A program made the translations under genes and the position numbers. From a virus: a stretch of 47,118 nt of DNA. Shown in pieces: positions 3,059 to 46,834 of the stretch (positions within the stretch are counted from its first letter, which is position 1; every line of letters begins with the position of its first letter). The notes below the pieces were generated by a model. The model was given only the letters and a program-made list of their open reading frames with translations, was not told the DNA's origin and made no database searches. The stretch lies in the IMG/VR virus record IMGVR_UViG_3300033145_000207, positions 1 to 47,118 of that record, one strand, 5' to 3'.

Positions 3059-3364
3059 TTACCTTTGTTTATATCTTGGTGATAGGCCATGTTCTTCAAC
3101 TTGCTCGTCAATAATTGCCTTGAGCTTATCTGGCCCCATGCCTTCCAAGTTTCTCCGTGCGAGTTCCTTTGCCTCTTTCAGCAGTCCTTTTGTACTTGCT
3201 GACATGCCTGATCGAGCCTCAATAACGCAGTAAAGAAAAACAGCGGTCCGGTAATAGAAAAACTCGAAGTCCTCAAAGCCTTTGAACTTTACCTGGCACC
3301 CTTTTACTGCAACGAACCGGGGAGCCTCATTCGGGAATTTTTGTAATGCGTAAAATTCTTTCAT
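3059..3364 (-). CDS. Hypothetical protein, 101 residues
   Basis: Starts MKEFYALQKFPNEAPRFVAVKG after GAGGGAGGTTAGAGA. The N-terminal half is aromatic and beta-like. The C-terminal half is a charged helix (KGLLKEAKELARRNLEGMGP). It is separated from the next leftward gene by about 67 bases and may share its transcript. No family recognised. Confidence 0.7.
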   Translation of the reverse strand: MKEFYALQKFPNEAPRFVAVKGCQVKFKGFEDFEFFYYRTAVFLYCVIEARSGMSASTKGLLKEAKELARRNLEGMGPDKLKAIIDEQVEEHGLSPRYKQR

Positions 3365-3431
3365 TCTCTAACCTCCCTCTTTTTATTTTACTCACTCCCG
3401 CCCCGGATAAGCGCCGGAGGAGGATGAAGGG

Positions 3432-3620
3432 TTAAAAAAGTTCTCCTCTATCTGCGGCACGTTCAAGGTCTGCGCGGTCCGCTTTTTTGAGGGTTTCGGC
3501 AACGATCCCCCTGTGAGTGTAGCTTGCCCTGTCAACAAATTCGGTCTGGACACCCCTTTTTAGAGTTGTGTCAGTCCATCCGATTACGTGCCCGGTTTCT
3601 TTTCTGATTATCTTTTTCAT
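3432..3620 (-). CDS. Small hypothetical protein, 62 residues
   Basis: Starts MKKIIRKETGHVIGWTDTTLKRG. I prefer ATG 3620, which has TGGAGG ten bases upstream, over longer in-frame starts with no ribosome binding site. The C-terminus is a charged helix rich in Ala, Asp, Arg and Glu. It is the first gene of the leftward unit read from the 3621-3790 intergenic region. No family recognised. Confidence 0.65.
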   Translation of the reverse strand: MKKIIRKETGHVIGWTDTTLKRGVQTEFVDRASYTHRGIVAETLKKADRADLERAADRGELF

Positions 3621-36154: not shown

Positions 36155-36339
36155 CTCCCTATCCTCGTAGCTATGGCTTTTGTTATACGAGAAGCTGCTG
36201 TCCCATATCCAAGAATGCCCCTTGATTCCGAGAGGACTATCTCTCTTATCTCTTTCTCATCCGGCAGAAACTTCTCGTATGCGTCAATAGCCCCATCCCA
36301 ACTACTATCAGTAAACGTATTCTTCTCCGGCTTTTCCAT
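36151..36339 (-). CDS. Small acidic hypothetical protein, 62 residues
   Basis: MEKPEKNTFTDSSWDGAIDA ... AIATRIGR. The ATG overlaps the RecT stop (TAATG), and its own stop overlaps the next start (ATGA). It is therefore translated between RecT and the NinB-like gene. It may bind RecT or DNA. No family recognised. Confidence 0.65.
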   Translation of the reverse strand: MEKPEKNTFTDSSWDGAIDAYEKFLPDEKEIREIVLSESRGILGYGTAASRITKAIATRIGR

Positions 36340-37325
36340 TATGACTCTCCTTTCGAGGATTCATATGTCACCAATAACCCCGCATAAGAATCTATCAGGT
36401 ACTTTAGTTTCGCAGGTGTTGCCTCTTCACCTTCCATCGCCCATGCGTAGAACTTCTTCTTTTCCTCCGCGCTCATCTTCATCTTGTAGTTCAACTGCTT
36501 CTTGAGAGCGGCTATAACGGCTTTTTCTGTTTCTTCCGGGGTGGTAGTGGCCTTCGTGGGTTCAGGGGCTTGTGGCGCCTCCTGACGCTTCTCAGGCGTA
36601 GTTTCTTCGACTACTTCAGCTTCTTCAACTCGTTTCATTAAATTATCAGCCGAAGTAAATTCATCCTTCTTCAACCCTTCATGCTCATTTAAAACATGAA
36701 CCGCTGTTGACATTCGTTCCGTCTGCGGAAGGTATTTATAGAGCTTCTTGACAGCAGACTTGCGCCACATCTCCGCTTCAAATGCACCCTTCCAGGGAGA
36801 GTATGAACTGTTAAGTGCTTTTGATGTTTTTTTGATATTATCAATCTCGGACTTGGTAAGCACAATAAACTTCTTGATATTGTCTGGCAGAATGGCTATC
36901 GCATAAACAAAGGCCATCTCTCCGCGTTCAGTCTCAAGGCTTGGTTTGTGTTTCAGGTAGGGACATAATCCCATTTCATAATCGAACTCGTCCTTTTCGT
37001 AAACCACCGTTGCGTCAATGTCTATTACTCCGCCTGCGTCCGTGGCGATCTTACAAAGCCCCCTGTACCCGAAGTCAAGACAACACTTACCATCTCTCGG
37101 TATAAGATATGCCTGCTGCAAAACCGGATTCAAGGTTGCACCCGTCAGGGCTACGTTGATAATGGCGTTTTTTATGCTCTGTGGTGAGCATTTCTGGAGG
37201 GCGTTATTCCCCCTGAACGATTGTACCGCAAAGATAACTTCCTTTGTGTACTTCACTTCATCAACAACCTCGACGAAGCTCGACTTTACCTTTTCGTCAT
37301 AAATCGCTATCTCATAATTTTCCAT
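36339..37325 (-). CDS. recT: RecT single-strand annealing protein
   Basis: 328 residues. The N-terminal segment VKYTKEVIFAVQSFRGNNAL, then CSPQSIKNAIINVALTGATL and NPVLQQAYLIPRDGKCCLDF, then GYRGLCKIATDAGGV, is a clear RecT core. KGAFEAEMWRKSAVKKLYKY follows. The C-terminal Pro/Glu-rich tail (APQAPEPTKATTTPEE) is disordered. The protein anneals single strands made by an exonuclease; the RecE-like gene upstream provides that. Confidence 0.92.
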   Translation of the reverse strand: MENYEIAIYDEKVKSSFVEVVDEVKYTKEVIFAVQSFRGNNALQKCSPQSIKNAIINVALTGATLNPVLQQAYLIPRDGKCCLDFGYRGLCKIATDAGGVIDIDATVVYEKDEFDYEMGLCPYLKHKPSLETERGEMAFVYAIAILPDNIKKFIVLTKSEIDNIKKTSKALNSSYSPWKGAFEAEMWRKSAVKKLYKYLPQTERMSTAVHVLNEHEGLKKDEFTSADNLMKRVEEAEVVEETTPEKRQEAPQAPEPTKATTTPEETEKAVIAALKKQLNYKMKMSAEEKKKFYAWAMEGEEATPAKLKYLIDSYAGLLVTYESSKGES

Positions 37326-37334
37326 GATTCCCCC

Positions 37335-37475
37335 TTAATCTTTAAGTTTTACTGTAGTCAGTATCAGACCCCCAAACAAGATAATCCACCAATGTCCAAA
37401 ATATATAGCCACCGCCGTAAAACAAGCAATTATCCCAACATTCTCAAAAGCAATCGCCCAGTATGACATTTTCAT
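37335..37475 (-). CDS. Small membrane protein, 46 residues
   Basis: MKMSYWAIAFENVGIIACFT then AVAIYFGHWWIILFGGLILT, two hydrophobic segments with a basic tail. GGGGGAATT stands before the ATG at 37475. It lies between the RecE-like nuclease and RecT in a position that suggests it is co-transcribed. Its role is unknown. Confidence 0.65.
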   Translation of the reverse strand: MKMSYWAIAFENVGIIACFTAVAIYFGHWWIILFGGLILTTVKLKD

Positions 37476-37483
37476 AATTCCCC

Positions 37484-38290
37484 CTAATCATATGTCTGTA
37501 AGTAGTTTGGTTTTGTTAATTCTACCGCTCCCGCATTCTGATAGTGCGGATAAAAGCCAGCATCTCGGCATTCTTTTTCTATTAACAAAAGTCTCTTATA
37601 TTCGTTATATCCCCAGTTCAAAAAATCTTCATTAAGGGTATAAACTTCCGTTCTATATGGTTCTTTATCTTCAACCGCAATGAATGCAAAACAGTCTGGT
37701 ATCATTATCCCCTCGGTGGCCTGTTTGATTCCATCAAGGTACATTCCGGCTTGTTGTGGGTATCTATACTGAACCAAAGAATGCTGGAAACCATGCGTGC
37801 TGGCGTCCCGCGTCTTTTTTAAATCAACAACAACTCCGTCAACTGTAGGTATCTTATCCGGCCTTGCTTTACATTCAATCCCCGTTTCTTCATCTGTCCA
37901 AATAACGGTTTGTTCTGAAAGACCCCCTGTAATTAGTTTAGACGCAAGGGGATGGAGCATTATCTTTTCTTTCATACCTTTAATGGTGTTAAGTTCATCC
38001 GCCGTGATTACCGTCTTATCTTTGTTCTGTTCTACAAATATGCGGTAATCTTCTTTTCCCTGATTAGTTCGTCTATTGATTTCTGGCGATATGGCGACTT
38101 CGTTTTCAAAAATATCCGGCTCCAAAACGTAAACATGGAATGCCCTGCCAAAAGCGAAGATAGCCGTGTCGGGTGTTTTGATTTGTGCCTTTGCCGGATA
38201 GACAGACAATTTGTCAAGATAAGAATTGCTCACCCGATCAAGCGCATGGTATTCCTTATGCCCAATGCTCCCATAAATTCCGTTTTTCAT
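37484..38290 (-). CDS. RecE-like PD-(D/E)XK exonuclease
   Basis: 268 residues. The N-terminus (YHALDRVSNSYLDKLSVYPA) and the nuclease core EETGIECKARPDKI with VVVDLKKTRD (D156-LKK) match the phage RecE/DUF3799-type PD-(D/E)XK nucleases. The later YPQQAGMYLDGI and FIAVEDKEPY motifs are also typical. It degrades one strand of a DNA end so that RecT can anneal the other. Order with RecT supports this. Confidence 0.88.
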   Translation of the reverse strand: MKNGIYGSIGHKEYHALDRVSNSYLDKLSVYPAKAQIKTPDTAIFAFGRAFHVYVLEPDIFENEVAISPEINRRTNQGKEDYRIFVEQNKDKTVITADELNTIKGMKEKIMLHPLASKLITGGLSEQTVIWTDEETGIECKARPDKIPTVDGVVVDLKKTRDASTHGFQHSLVQYRYPQQAGMYLDGIKQATEGIMIPDCFAFIAVEDKEPYRTEVYTLNEDFLNWGYNEYKRLLLIEKECRDAGFYPHYQNAGAVELTKPNYLQTYD

Positions 38291-44047: not shown

Positions 44048-44196
44048 CCCCATATTACGATCATAAATTCAAACCCAAAACCAAGTGGGTGAGGGATCTG
44101 TTAGCTCTGCGTAAAAAGGGGATCTTCCCACTCTTAACCGTAGATGAGATTTTAACAGAGAAACAAAAAAGACGAGGAAACAACCATGAATTATAG
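44044..44196 (+). CDS. Small protein with MTPYYD start, 50 residues
   Basis: MTPYYDHKFKPKTKWVRDLL ... RRGNNHEL. The ATG overlaps the upstream stop (ATGA). Its start is a variant of the MKPYYD tag, here fused to a basic helical protein. It overlaps the next gene by 11 bases. Confidence 0.6.
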   Translation: MTPYYDHKFKPKTKWVRDLLALRKKGIFPLLTVDEILTEKQKRRGNNHEL

Positions 44197-44380
44197 AAGC
44201 ATAAAGCAATGCCCTTTTTGCGGGGCTAATCCGGTAGTCGGAAGCTTGGGCGGCGATAAACAGAACTGGGCGATATATTGCCCGGCCTGCGGGATTCCGT
44301 GCGTTGAAAATAGAGTTGATGAAACGTTAGACGATATTAAGGAAAAATGGAACAAGAGAAGCCTTGACAAACCATTATAA
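44186..44380 (+). CDS. Lar-like restriction alleviation protein
   Basis: 64 residues: IKQCPFCGANPVVGSLGGDK, then YCPACG and a C-terminal KWNKRS. CPFCG ... WNKR is the signature of the Lar family of small phage zinc proteins linked to relief from host restriction. Four cysteines form a zinc ribbon. It is placed before the methyltransferase and nuclease-like genes, in keeping with a counter-restriction or modification cluster. Confidence 0.72.
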   Translation: MNYRSIKQCPFCGANPVVGSLGGDKQNWAIYCPACGIPCVENRVDETLDDIKEKWNKRSLDKPL

Positions 44381-44404
44381 CTGTGAAATGATGTAGGTGA
44401 GGAT

Positions 44405-44523
44405 AAGGTAATAGTCTATGGTGGATAATCAAACAACAATTATTATGAATTTGAGACGCATTGCGGTGCTGGTTTACCAGCAGGGTGGCCCACCATCCAC
44501 CTTACCTTGCCGTAGTGCGTCTC
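44405..44523 (+). ncRNA. Pseudoknotted structured RNA candidate upstream of the methyltransferase
   Basis: Stems seen in order: AAGGTAA (44405-44411) with TTACCTT (44502-44508); GGTGGAT (44420-44426) with ATCCACC (44495-44501); GAGACGCA (44453-44460) with TGCGTCTC (44516-44523), extended by CGG/CCG (44464/44510); TGCTGGT (44467-44473) with ACCAGCA (44476-44482). The first two nest with each other but cross the third, making an H-type pseudoknot. It lies in a 164-base gap with no gene and ends 22 bases before the ATG at 44545. A cis-acting element (riboswitch-like) or a small RNA is likely. Confidence 0.65.
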
Positions 44524-44544
44524 TTTACGTTTGAGGAGGCATGA

Positions 44545-45498
44545 ATGGAATTAACCCACTTCAATAAAGCGAAGAATGAACTTGCGTTGGCAACCAGCGT
44601 AGATGAGATAAAAACGATTCGGGGTAAAGCCGAAGCTCTTAGGGCATACGCAAAACAAGCCGGCGAATCACTTGAAATGCAAAACCAGTGTGCCGAAATA
44701 AAAATTAGGGCAGAGCGCAGGGCGGGGGAAATAATACCGGAAAAGATTGAACATGGTGGAGACAGAAGGTCAGAATCAAGGTTGCACGATGAAACCTTGA
44801 AAGATTTGGATATTACCAGAACCCAATCCCACCGCTGGCAGGCAATAGCTTCTGTGCCAGAAGAAGCATTTGAAGAACATATCGCGCAAACAAAAGCGGG
44901 AGGGAAGGAATTGACGAGCGTTGGTGTTTACAAATTAGCCAAAAAAGAAGAACGGCGGGTCTATTTTAATGAATTGAAAAACACCGTTAAGCCAATTCCA
45001 GATGGATTATATAGTGTAATTCTCGCAGATCCACCTTGGAGATATGAGTTTTCTGAAACAGATAGCAGAGCAATAGAAAATCAATATCCGCCAATGGATT
45101 TAGACGCAATTAAAGAAATCAAAATTCCTGCAACAGAAAATTCAATTCTGTTTCTGTGGGCAACAGCACCCAAACTTGAAGAAGCCCTGTCTGTCCTTAA
45201 TGCATGGGGCTTTAAATACCGTACATGCTCAGTGTGGGATAAGGAAATTATAGGAATGGGATATTGGTTTCGGGGGCAACATGAATTATTGCTGGTTGGT
45301 GTAAGGGGTAATTTTAAAACTCCAGAAGCGAGTGAAAGGGTTAGTTCTGTTTATAGAGAAAGGCGAACCAAACACAGCAAAAAGCCAGAGTACTATTATG
45401 ATTTAATAGAAAAGTACTTCCCAAATGGCAATTATTTAGAGTTGTTCGCCAGACAAAAGCATAGACAAAAATGGGAAGTTTGGGGAAATGAATGTTGA
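44545..45498 (+). CDS. MT-A70-type adenine DNA methyltransferase
   Basis: 317 residues. The N-terminal 150 are a helical, charged region of the kind fused to such enzymes (MELTHFNKAKNELALATSVD; RRAGEIIPEKIEHGGDRR). The catalytic part has ILADPPWRYEFSETDSR (DPPW at about 161-164), then ILFLWATAPKLEEAL, YWFRGQHELLLVGVRG and SKKPEYYYDLIEKYFPNG then NYLELFAR. These are standard MT-A70 motifs that methylate adenine N6. It may protect phage DNA from restriction. ATG 44545 follows GAGGAGG by six bases. Confidence 0.9.
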   Translation: MELTHFNKAKNELALATSVDEIKTIRGKAEALRAYAKQAGESLEMQNQCAEIKIRAERRAGEIIPEKIEHGGDRRSESRLHDETLKDLDITRTQSHRWQAIASVPEEAFEEHIAQTKAGGKELTSVGVYKLAKKEERRVYFNELKNTVKPIPDGLYSVILADPPWRYEFSETDSRAIENQYPPMDLDAIKEIKIPATENSILFLWATAPKLEEALSVLNAWGFKYRTCSVWDKEIIGMGYWFRGQHELLLVGVRGNFKTPEASERVSSVYRERRTKHSKKPEYYYDLIEKYFPNGNYLELFARQKHRQKWEVWGNEC

Positions 45499-45998
45499 TA
45501 AATGATTTTAATGAAGATTTAAAATTTAGTCATTCTGCTGAAGATTTGCCGATATGGGAAATTATTTACAATAAAGCATTTCCCGATAATCTTGGCTTCG
45601 TCAATATGCGTGACAATGGCCAAACCCAGCATTTGGGAATAGACCGCACGTTAATATTGGCATCCGGGAAGGCAATCTATATTGACGAAAAAGTGAGACG
45701 TAAGGACTATGGTGATATCTTAATTGAATATATGAGCAATGACCAAAAGAACACTAAGGGGTGGGCAGAAAAACCTTTGTTTTGTGATTATATAGCATAC
45801 GCCATATTGCCAAGAAATGTGTGCTTTCTATTGCCCGTTCCTCAACTACAAAAAGCATGGATAGAGAACAAGCCCGATTGGTTGTTGAAATATGGCACAC
45901 GTTCAGCGGACAACAAATATTATAAAACACTAAATTGTCCAATTCCTATAGATATTTTATTTAAAGCAATAGGCCAGACATTGAGGATAAAATTTTAA
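45492..45998 (+). CDS. PD-(D/E)XK-like protein next to the methyltransferase
   Basis: 168 residues, overlapping the methyltransferase stop by a few bases. GIDRTLILASGKAIYIDEKV then RRKDYGDILIEY contains D51 and D65-E66-K67, spaced like a PD-(D/E)XK nuclease core, then KGWAEKPLFCDYIAYAILP. I recall similar proteins in phages and bacteria with unassigned function. It could be a restriction-like nuclease or a nicking or repair factor, with the methyltransferase as its counterpart. Confidence 0.6.
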   Translation: MLINDFNEDLKFSHSAEDLPIWEIIYNKAFPDNLGFVNMRDNGQTQHLGIDRTLILASGKAIYIDEKVRRKDYGDILIEYMSNDQKNTKGWAEKPLFCDYIAYAILPRNVCFLLPVPQLQKAWIENKPDWLLKYGTRSADNKYYKTLNCPIPIDILFKAIGQTLRIKF

Positions 45999-46009
45999 GG
46001 TAAAAGAGT

Positions 46010-46834
46010 ATGGCTAAATACAGACCAGTCCTTTGTACTATGTGGGACGATCCAGACTTTGAAAACTACCCTCCAGAGGGCAAGTTACTGTTTCTGTATC
46101 TCTGCACCAACCGCAGGACTACTGAATCGGGCATATATCCCATAACAATCAAGTCTATCAAAAACGAAACCTGCATTAAGGAAGAAACCATTAAGAAACT
46201 GTTAGCTAACAGTTTAAAAAATGTTACCTATGACTTTGAAAATTCCTTTGTGTTTGTGCATAGGTTTCTGAATTACAATTCAGGTGGCAGACCAGAAAGA
46301 ATAGAAGCCGGGATCAAATCGGATAACCTGAACTATCAGACACCTCTTTGGAATATGTTTATTGAAAAATATCCGCACCTGAAAAGTGGTTTTGAAACAA
46401 AAAATCTTATTACTTATAAACTAAATACTAATACTATAACTAATACTATAACTAAAGAACCGTTACCAAACGGTTCGGTAACAGTTAGCAAACCGTTAAA
46501 GAAAATGAATAAAGAAACATACTTAGAATGTGTTGAATTGACAGACATAGAATATAAAAAATTGGTTGAAAAAGAAGGAAAGGTAAATACCGACAAGGCC
46601 ATAGAGTTTCTTAACAACTACAAAATGAGTTCAGGAAAGAAATATAAATCGGATTATCACTCAATGCTAAACTGGGTTTTTGAGAGAATAAAGCAGGGAG
46701 GCAACAATGGAACCAATAAGCGATACGATAGGAAGGACAGGAATTGGGCCGAACAACAAGCCGACGAAGAAACCGAGCGAATCAACCGGGAGTGGAGGGA
46801 AGCTAAGGCAAAAGCCGCCGCTGGTAATCCCTAA
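46010..46834 (+). CDS. Replication protein (DnaD/replisome-organiser-like)
   Basis: 274 residues. The N-terminal 120 (MAKYRPVLCTMWDDPDFENY ... GIYPITIKSI) is a winged-helix-type domain. KYKSDYHSMLNWVFERIKQG near residue 220 is a motif of phage replication proteins with a DnaD-like C-terminus. The tail is Lys/Glu/Ala-rich. Tandem and inverted repeats inside the gene (46429-46497) look like an origin. It would bind the origin and load the host helicase. Confidence 0.72.
   Translation: MAKYRPVLCTMWDDPDFENYPPEGKLLFLYLCTNRRTTESGIYPITIKSIKNETCIKEETIKKLLANSLKNVTYDFENSFVFVHRFLNYNSGGRPERIEAGIKSDNLNYQTPLWNMFIEKYPHLKSGFETKNLITYKLNTNTITNTITKEPLPNGSVTVSKPLKKMNKETYLECVELTDIEYKKLVEKEGKVNTDKAIEFLNNYKMSSGKKYKSDYHSMLNWVFERIKQGGNNGTNKRYDRKDRNWAEQQADEETERINREWREAKAKAAAGNP
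46429..46497. repeat. Candidate replication origin repeats inside the replication gene
   Basis: TAATACTATAAC occurs twice in tandem (46429-46440, 46441-46452), encoding the ITNTITNTIT stretch. Then AACCGTT (46458) pairs with AACGGTT (46469), GTTACC (46462) with GGTAAC (46477), and AACCGTT recurs at 46491. AT-rich repeats inside the initiator gene are the arrangement of the lambda origin in gene O. Inferred from form and place. Confidence 0.55.

Follow-up and report, generated by a model that had tools for sequence, protein, structure and literature searches.

In P1-like phages, C4 RNA represses antirepressor genes as an antisense RNA that acts in trans. The record of phage P1 (L231, NC_005856) annotates a1 (TTGACAG), b1 (GTTAGTGC), C4 RNA, a2, b2, icd and ant, and its C4 RNA is built of a long closing stem, a hairpin P2, a hairpin P3 with the segment b' in its loop, and the segment a' directly after P3. 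The site at which c4 RNA blocks ant mRNA lies close to the ribosome-binding site of that mRNA (PMC12197685). In the isrK-orf45-anrP region of the Salmonella prophage Gifsy-1, translation is silenced when an upstream RNA pairs with a small ORF, and the next gene requires this small ORF to be translated, so that the two are translationally coupled (PMC4825925); the nucleotides of orf45 are more conserved than its amino acids, as noted in a review (PMC12197685). A further antisense RNA, the CI RNA of phage P4, pairs with a site further upstream in the transcript to which it belongs (PMC4825925).

The window analysed here is the whole of the IMG/VR phage record IMGVR_UViG_3300033145_000207 (47,118 nt, positions 1 to 47,118), in which a structured leader precedes a gene for an MT-A70 adenine methyltransferase (44545–45498, plus strand; Pfam PF05063, E 1.6e-24), the presumed regulated gene. 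This leader is probably a C4-type antisense RNA that carries its own target and gates the methyltransferase through an upstream open reading frame (uORF); possibly, the leader RNA is also able to act as a small RNA.

Structure of the leader

An earlier note, made from the sequence alone, described four perfect stems of 7–8 bp within 119 bases (44405–44523). All four are present on the plus strand: AAGGTAA (44405–44411) with TTACCTT (44502–44508), GGTGGAT (44420–44426) with ATCCACC (44495–44501), GAGACGCA (44453–44460) with TGCGTCTC (44516–44523), and TGCTGGT (44467–44473) with ACCAGCA (44476–44482). ATGGTGG (44418–44424) and CCACCAT (44490–44496) add a fifth stem of at least 7 bp inside the same bases. 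The judgement that so many stems are unlikely by chance is borne out, four stems of at least 7 bp being reached in 3 of 3000 dinucleotide shuffles of the 119 bases and the observed five in none. The third stem crosses the first two as an H-type pseudoknot, as had been proposed, and this structure is kept with compensatory changes in the leader of locus L060. The other details of the stems were accurate in part. The third, said to be extended by CGG/CCG, is longer than 8 bp but really consists of 15 continuous pairs with G-U (GAGACGCAUUGCGGU with GCCGUAGUGCGUCUC). The letters of the second are present, but GGTGGAT/ATCCACC is not kept in L060, and AUGGUGG/CCACCAU is the better pairing; it was redrawn in this form because GGTGG (44484–44488) and CCACC (44497–44501) are thereby freed for P3, and because this pairing is kept in L060 and in P1 C4. 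The pseudoknotted structure of the leader is well supported. Its position just before the MT-A70 gene is confirmed as that of a leader, with 21 nt rather than 22 between the third stem and the start at 44545.

Transcription would be expected to start near 44399, from a predicted sigma-70 promoter (44364–44392, plus strand; -35 TTGACA at 44364–44369, 17-nt spacer, -10 AATGAT at 44387–44392), which puts the target segment a1 about 6 nt from the predicted RNA start. Strong -35 and -10 elements also lie directly before the first strand at L060, L026, L022, L063, L019, L086 and L078. Segment a1 (AAGGUAA, 44405–44411), the putative Shine-Dalgarno sequence of the uORF, pairs with a' (UUACCUU, 44502–44508), and b1 (AUGGUGG, 44418–44424), which holds the uORF start codon, pairs with b' (CCACCAU, 44490–44496). 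The C4-like domain, delimited by its minimum free energy (MFE) fold and a descriptor match, occupies 44453–44523 of the plus strand and comprises the closing stem (44453–44467/44509–44523), P2 (UGCUGG-uuua-CCAGCA, 44467–44482), the outermost base of which is common to the closing stem, which can breathe, and P3 (GGUGG-CCCACCAU-CCACC, 44484–44501), the loop of which holds b'. Segment a' abuts P3 on one side and the 3' strand of the closing stem on the other, placed as a' is in P1 C4. The domain folds at -41.2 kcal/mol (z = -6.9), and 0 of 200 shuffles are as stable.

Comparison with the C4 RNA of phage P1

The MFE layout of the window domain is common to L060 (172–244) and P1 C4: a closing stem, P2 with a 4-nt loop, P3 with a 7–9-nt loop, and a' after P3, the fold z-scores being -6.9, -5.6 and -4.4, respectively. 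Upstream of the domain, the pairing of a1 with a' and of b1 with b' follows the order and spacing of P1; by descriptor scoring, the lengths of a1 and b1 are 7+7 with a gap of 6 in the window, 7+6 with a gap of 6 in L060, and 7+7 with a gap of 7 in P1. The likeness to C4 of P1 and P7 (Rfam RF01695; clan CL00128 with RF03163) therefore takes in the closing stem, P2, b' in the P3 loop, a' directly after P3, and an upstream a1-gap-b1 similar in length and spacing, with a promoter ahead. A descriptor of this anatomy, applied to 1.67 Mb of phage DNA, gave three matches at loci below 60% GC, namely the window, P1 C4 and L060, and none in reversed or complemented controls; its control matches all fell in loci of 64–70% GC, where one real-strand match (L093) is also noise-like. 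A first, looser descriptor had returned as many control as real-strand matches and the tightened form was used; since both the window and P1 were already known when it was tightened, it shows specificity, not discovery.

The window differs from C4 of P1 and P7 in lacking an Rfam score, an a2/b2 site close to the regulated gene and an a1b1 hairpin domain, and its next gene encodes MT-A70 where that of P1 is icd-ant. The element had not been recognised earlier as a known family, and no relevant Rfam match was found for the window, either at the gathering threshold or at E ≤ 10. The C4 model itself (RF01695), against which the P1 control scores 68.8, matches neither the window nor L060 at E ≤ 10, so that by the family's own score, with its membership cut-off of 45 bits, neither counts as a C4 RNA. 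A second target a2/b2 at the methyltransferase start was sought and no good pairing was found (-11.9 versus -21.0 kcal/mol at the uORF start), and the mechanism must thus work from a1/b1 alone. The start of the DnaD-like gene was also tried as a2/b2 and rejected on its weak pairing energy (-9.5); separately, the a1-gap-b1 pattern recurs there (45997–46016, AAGGTAAAAGAGTATGG) with 3 mismatches.

Covariation in L060

Among relatives of the methyltransferase, several carry strong crossed helices immediately ahead of the start codon. The closest cassette is that of L060, where the next gene downstream of the methyltransferase shares 83% identity with window 45492–45998. Its leader has the same parts in other letters: GAGGTAA/TTACCTC, TGTCGG/CCGACA, a 17-bp closing stem, and the hairpins UCGGA-gaaa-UCCGA and UGCGG-[CCCGACA]-CCGCA. 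Covariation in a homologue had been suggested as a check in the earlier note, and it is found: of 40 pairs compared between the window and L060, both partners differ in 16 and a single partner in 3, while 19 are unchanged and 2 no longer pair. In a1/a' an A-U pair of the window is G-C in L060, b1/b' has two double-sided changes and one broken end pair, and P2, P3 and b' covary as well. For the full C4 anatomy this comparison involves two sequences, the window and one relative.

Searches for further homologues extended the set little. The nearest phage relatives by terminase (L024, L025) are fragments without the leader region, DNA similarity searches in named phages gave chance matches only, and no viral contig matched a pattern search with the P2 hairpin. 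A pattern of promoter plus ATGnnGGAnAnTCAAA returned 80 stretches, with the pseudoknot only in L060 and the contig of L026, the others being apparently coding, and a search of species genomes with the protein downstream of the methyltransferase found none.

A small open reading frame across the structure

The region had been taken for a gene-free gap, but a 38-codon ORF (MVDNQTTIIMNLRRIAVLVYQQGGPPSTLPCRSASLYV, 44418–44534, plus strand) crosses it, beginning with the ATG at 44418 in b1, with a1 in the position of its Shine-Dalgarno sequence, running through the C4-like domain and closing with the TGA at 44532–44534 over the Shine-Dalgarno sequence of the methyltransferase gene (GAGGAGG, 44533–44539), 10 nt before the methyltransferase start. 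Neither the C4 architecture, nor the uORF, nor the coincidence of the pseudoknot's 5' strands with the uORF ribosome-binding site is in the earlier note. L060 has a 34-codon ORF at the matching place. When b'-a' was paired with the TIRs of the 55 ATG ORFs in the window, the uORF was the best partner at -21.0 kcal/mol, the next reaching -17.5. P1 resembles the window in this respect too, with a frame that opens at a1/b1, crosses the RNA and ends just before the next gene: from the ATG at 3268, which lies between a1 and b1, an unannotated 66-codon frame (3268–3468) extends across the C4 RNA and a2/b2 to the TAA at 3466–3468, 2 nt before icd.

An open frame across the region raises the question of whether the stems arose by chance or reflect coding constraint on a small gene, and one other stretch of the window does reach the five-stem level, at 46165–46166 inside the DnaD-like gene and nowhere else. 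This reading is very improbable given the fold z of -6.9 and the 16 double-sided changes, and the uORF peptides of the window and L060 matched no Pfam or PHROG family. A conserved coding frame had been named beforehand as evidence against an RNA element; the uORF is open in both loci, but their frames separate along the nucleotide alignment after a 7-nt gap and then a 1-nt gap. Over most of their length the two peptides are thereby misaligned, whereas the base pairs covary, so that the structure, not the peptide, is conserved.

Proposed mechanism

In the mechanism proposed here for the C4-type leader, the sigma-70 promoter would start an RNA whose first segment, a1 with b1, is predicted from the sequence to serve as ribosome-binding site and start codon of the uORF. 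The RNA would then fold into the C4-like domain, presenting b' in the P3 loop and a' just after P3, and these segments may pair with a1/b1 of the same RNA, as the pseudoknot, or of other copies if the domain is released by processing and acts in trans. Such pairing would keep ribosomes off the uORF, and a closed uORF would shut the methyltransferase through lost translational coupling, the uORF stop lying over its Shine-Dalgarno sequence. Once a1/b1 are freed, ribosomes would melt the structure and both the uORF and the methyltransferase would be switched on.

The role of the uORF as gate of the methyltransferase is suggested by analogy with IsrK-type leaders, of which the window has the pairing of an upstream strand and the frame, the coupling being supposed from the same analogy. 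The window resembles isrK-orf45-anrP of Gifsy-1 in its succession of promoter, structured RNA, small ORF paired upstream and putatively coupled gene (PMC4825925). In contrast, IsrK ends at its own terminator before orf45, activates in trans and has an antirepressor as its target, whereas the C4-like part of the window sits inside the uORF.

Transcription may in addition terminate where the closing stem ends in U-rich sequence, and such termination could also be the whole of the control. In such an attenuator of the P4 CI type, the closing stem would be an intrinsic terminator and the pairing of a'/b' with a1/b1 would set readthrough, leaving the uORF a minor part. P4 CI RNA acts by premature termination via seqA/seqC, and the IsrK terminator is read through (PMC4825925); many members of the wider set described below have U-rich sequence after the closing strand, which is strong in L026 (TTTTTTTATTTT) and L022 (TTTTTCTTTT). 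The corresponding stretch of the window (UCUCUUUACG), however, is weak, short and broken, none is found in L086, L129, L078 and L081, and attenuation leaves the uORF pattern unexplained. Attenuation alone is thus an unlikely account, and P4 CI RNA, which acts on transcription termination of replication genes, is likened to the window by description, not by sequence. Two other functions were considered. One was that coaxial helices seal the 5' end of the RNA between them, the first strand often lying at the predicted RNA start; it was rejected, as a short uORF leader explains this position too. For an R-loop primer for replication no evidence was found.

Related leaders in other phages

A scan for H-type pseudoknots with a strong sigma-70 promoter over 1.35 Mb of DNA below 58% GC, with no gene criterion, gave, at its strict setting, 9 matches on real strands and 2 on control sequences, which were reversed or complemented. 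Eight of the real pseudoknots are distinct, and all of these end 10–27 nt before an ORF. These precede MT-A70 genes in the window, L060 and L063, HNH endonuclease genes in L022 and L197, a gene for a DnaD-like protein with an HNH segment in L026, and genes without known function in L061 and L165. In seven of the eight, the first (S1/S2) strand covers or adjoins an ORF start, and the ORFs concerned end between -15 and +20 nt from the start of the next gene (about 0.7 of 8 in shuffles, p ~1e-7). Among MT-A70 leaders, the only ones counted in this respect, 9 of 83 have a pseudoknot unmatched by any of 200 shuffles, a figure to be read against the generally richer structure of intergenic regions. 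Most of the wider pseudoknots have no P2/P3 of C4 form, and only the window and L060 are therefore claimed as C4-type.

This positioning bears on whether the RNA might instead be a small RNA acting in trans on phage or host mRNAs and lying before the methyltransferase by chance. C4 RNA does act in trans, and the start of the DnaD-like gene (45997–46013) resembles a1-b1, but the adjacent uORF start is by far the best partner (-21.0 against -9.5), and the placement of all eight pseudoknots close before an ORF, found without any gene requirement, makes a purely trans-acting RNA quite improbable.

The variety of the genes likewise bears on ligand sensing. H-type pseudoknots occur in SAM-II riboswitches, and the position before a methyltransferase had led to the suggestion of a cis-regulator, for example one sensing SAM, SAH or the methylation product. 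Ligand sensing of this kind finds no support: no riboswitch family, SAM and SAH included, matched at E ≤ 10, the helices vary freely without a conserved aptamer core, and similar pseudoknots precede unrelated genes, which together render a riboswitch scarcely credible. Looser pseudoknots before varied genes, without a common sequence core, are as expected of regulation by base pairing.

Crossed helices with a promoter were located at L022 4925–5011, L026 1570–1674, L061 3172–3279, L063 1041–1125, L062 461–505, L165 1161–1259, L197 2158–2256 (minus strand), L086 5348–5416 and L078 about 1050–1150. The genes that directly follow them are of the HNH, DnaD-like, MT-A70 and unknown kinds, and in most cases a small ORF opens within the first strand. 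In L019 (1500–1860), a long GGC-rich run of short repeats (GGCAAGGCACGGC...) lies just before a methyltransferase pseudoknot leader.

At L081 (825–920), an int-alpA RNA (RF02996, 53.8 bits) precedes an MT-A70 gene and overlaps the leader of that gene. An upstream strand, CGGATGAGGC, contains an ATG and pairs with this RNA at GCCTTATCCG, which points to a C4-like nature of int-alpA RNAs as well. The int-alpA RNA shares with the window a closing stem with two inner hairpins and a U-rich end; unlike the window, its Rfam model has no upstream partner strand, and RF02996 matches neither the window nor L060. It is tentatively proposed that these leaders share a sequence-free phage design, consisting of a promoter, a small ORF whose 3' half is antisense to its own ribosome-binding site, and a crossed helix ending at the next gene, which might control MT-A70 methyltransferases, HNH endonucleases, replisome organisers and others, with C4, IsrK-orf45 and int-alpA as special cases.

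Implications and neighbouring genes

The window suggests that the C4-type RNA switch controls phage genes beyond antirepressors: the gene here is a DNA-modifying one, the phage shows no visible kinship to P1, and the RNA has diverged beyond the reach of Rfam. From the frame that crosses it, the RNA would seem to act on a small ORF with which the gene is coupled. If this is true, such RNAs could be found by anatomy, not by sequence, and may time the production of phage methyltransferases and endonucleases; for P1, it may be asked whether the unannotated frame from the ATG at 3268 matters for C4 control.

Several neighbouring features of the window were also observed. A Lar-like restriction alleviation gene (44186–44380, Pfam PF14354) overlaps with its end the -35 element of the leader promoter. 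Downstream, a 168-aa protein (45492–45998) matching no Pfam family has a conserved IDEKxRR like the PD-(D/E)xK nuclease motif; in unrelated phages, too, it regularly follows MT-A70. Up to five 7-bp stems cluster a second time at 46151–46183, inside the gene for the DnaD-like replisome organiser, and this cluster is possibly a replication origin. A RecT-like annealing protein and an exonuclease VIII-like gene (36339–38290, minus strand) are encoded on the strand opposite to the rest, and a PAPS reductase domain protein (1427–2182, PF01507) lies at the left end of the phage record.
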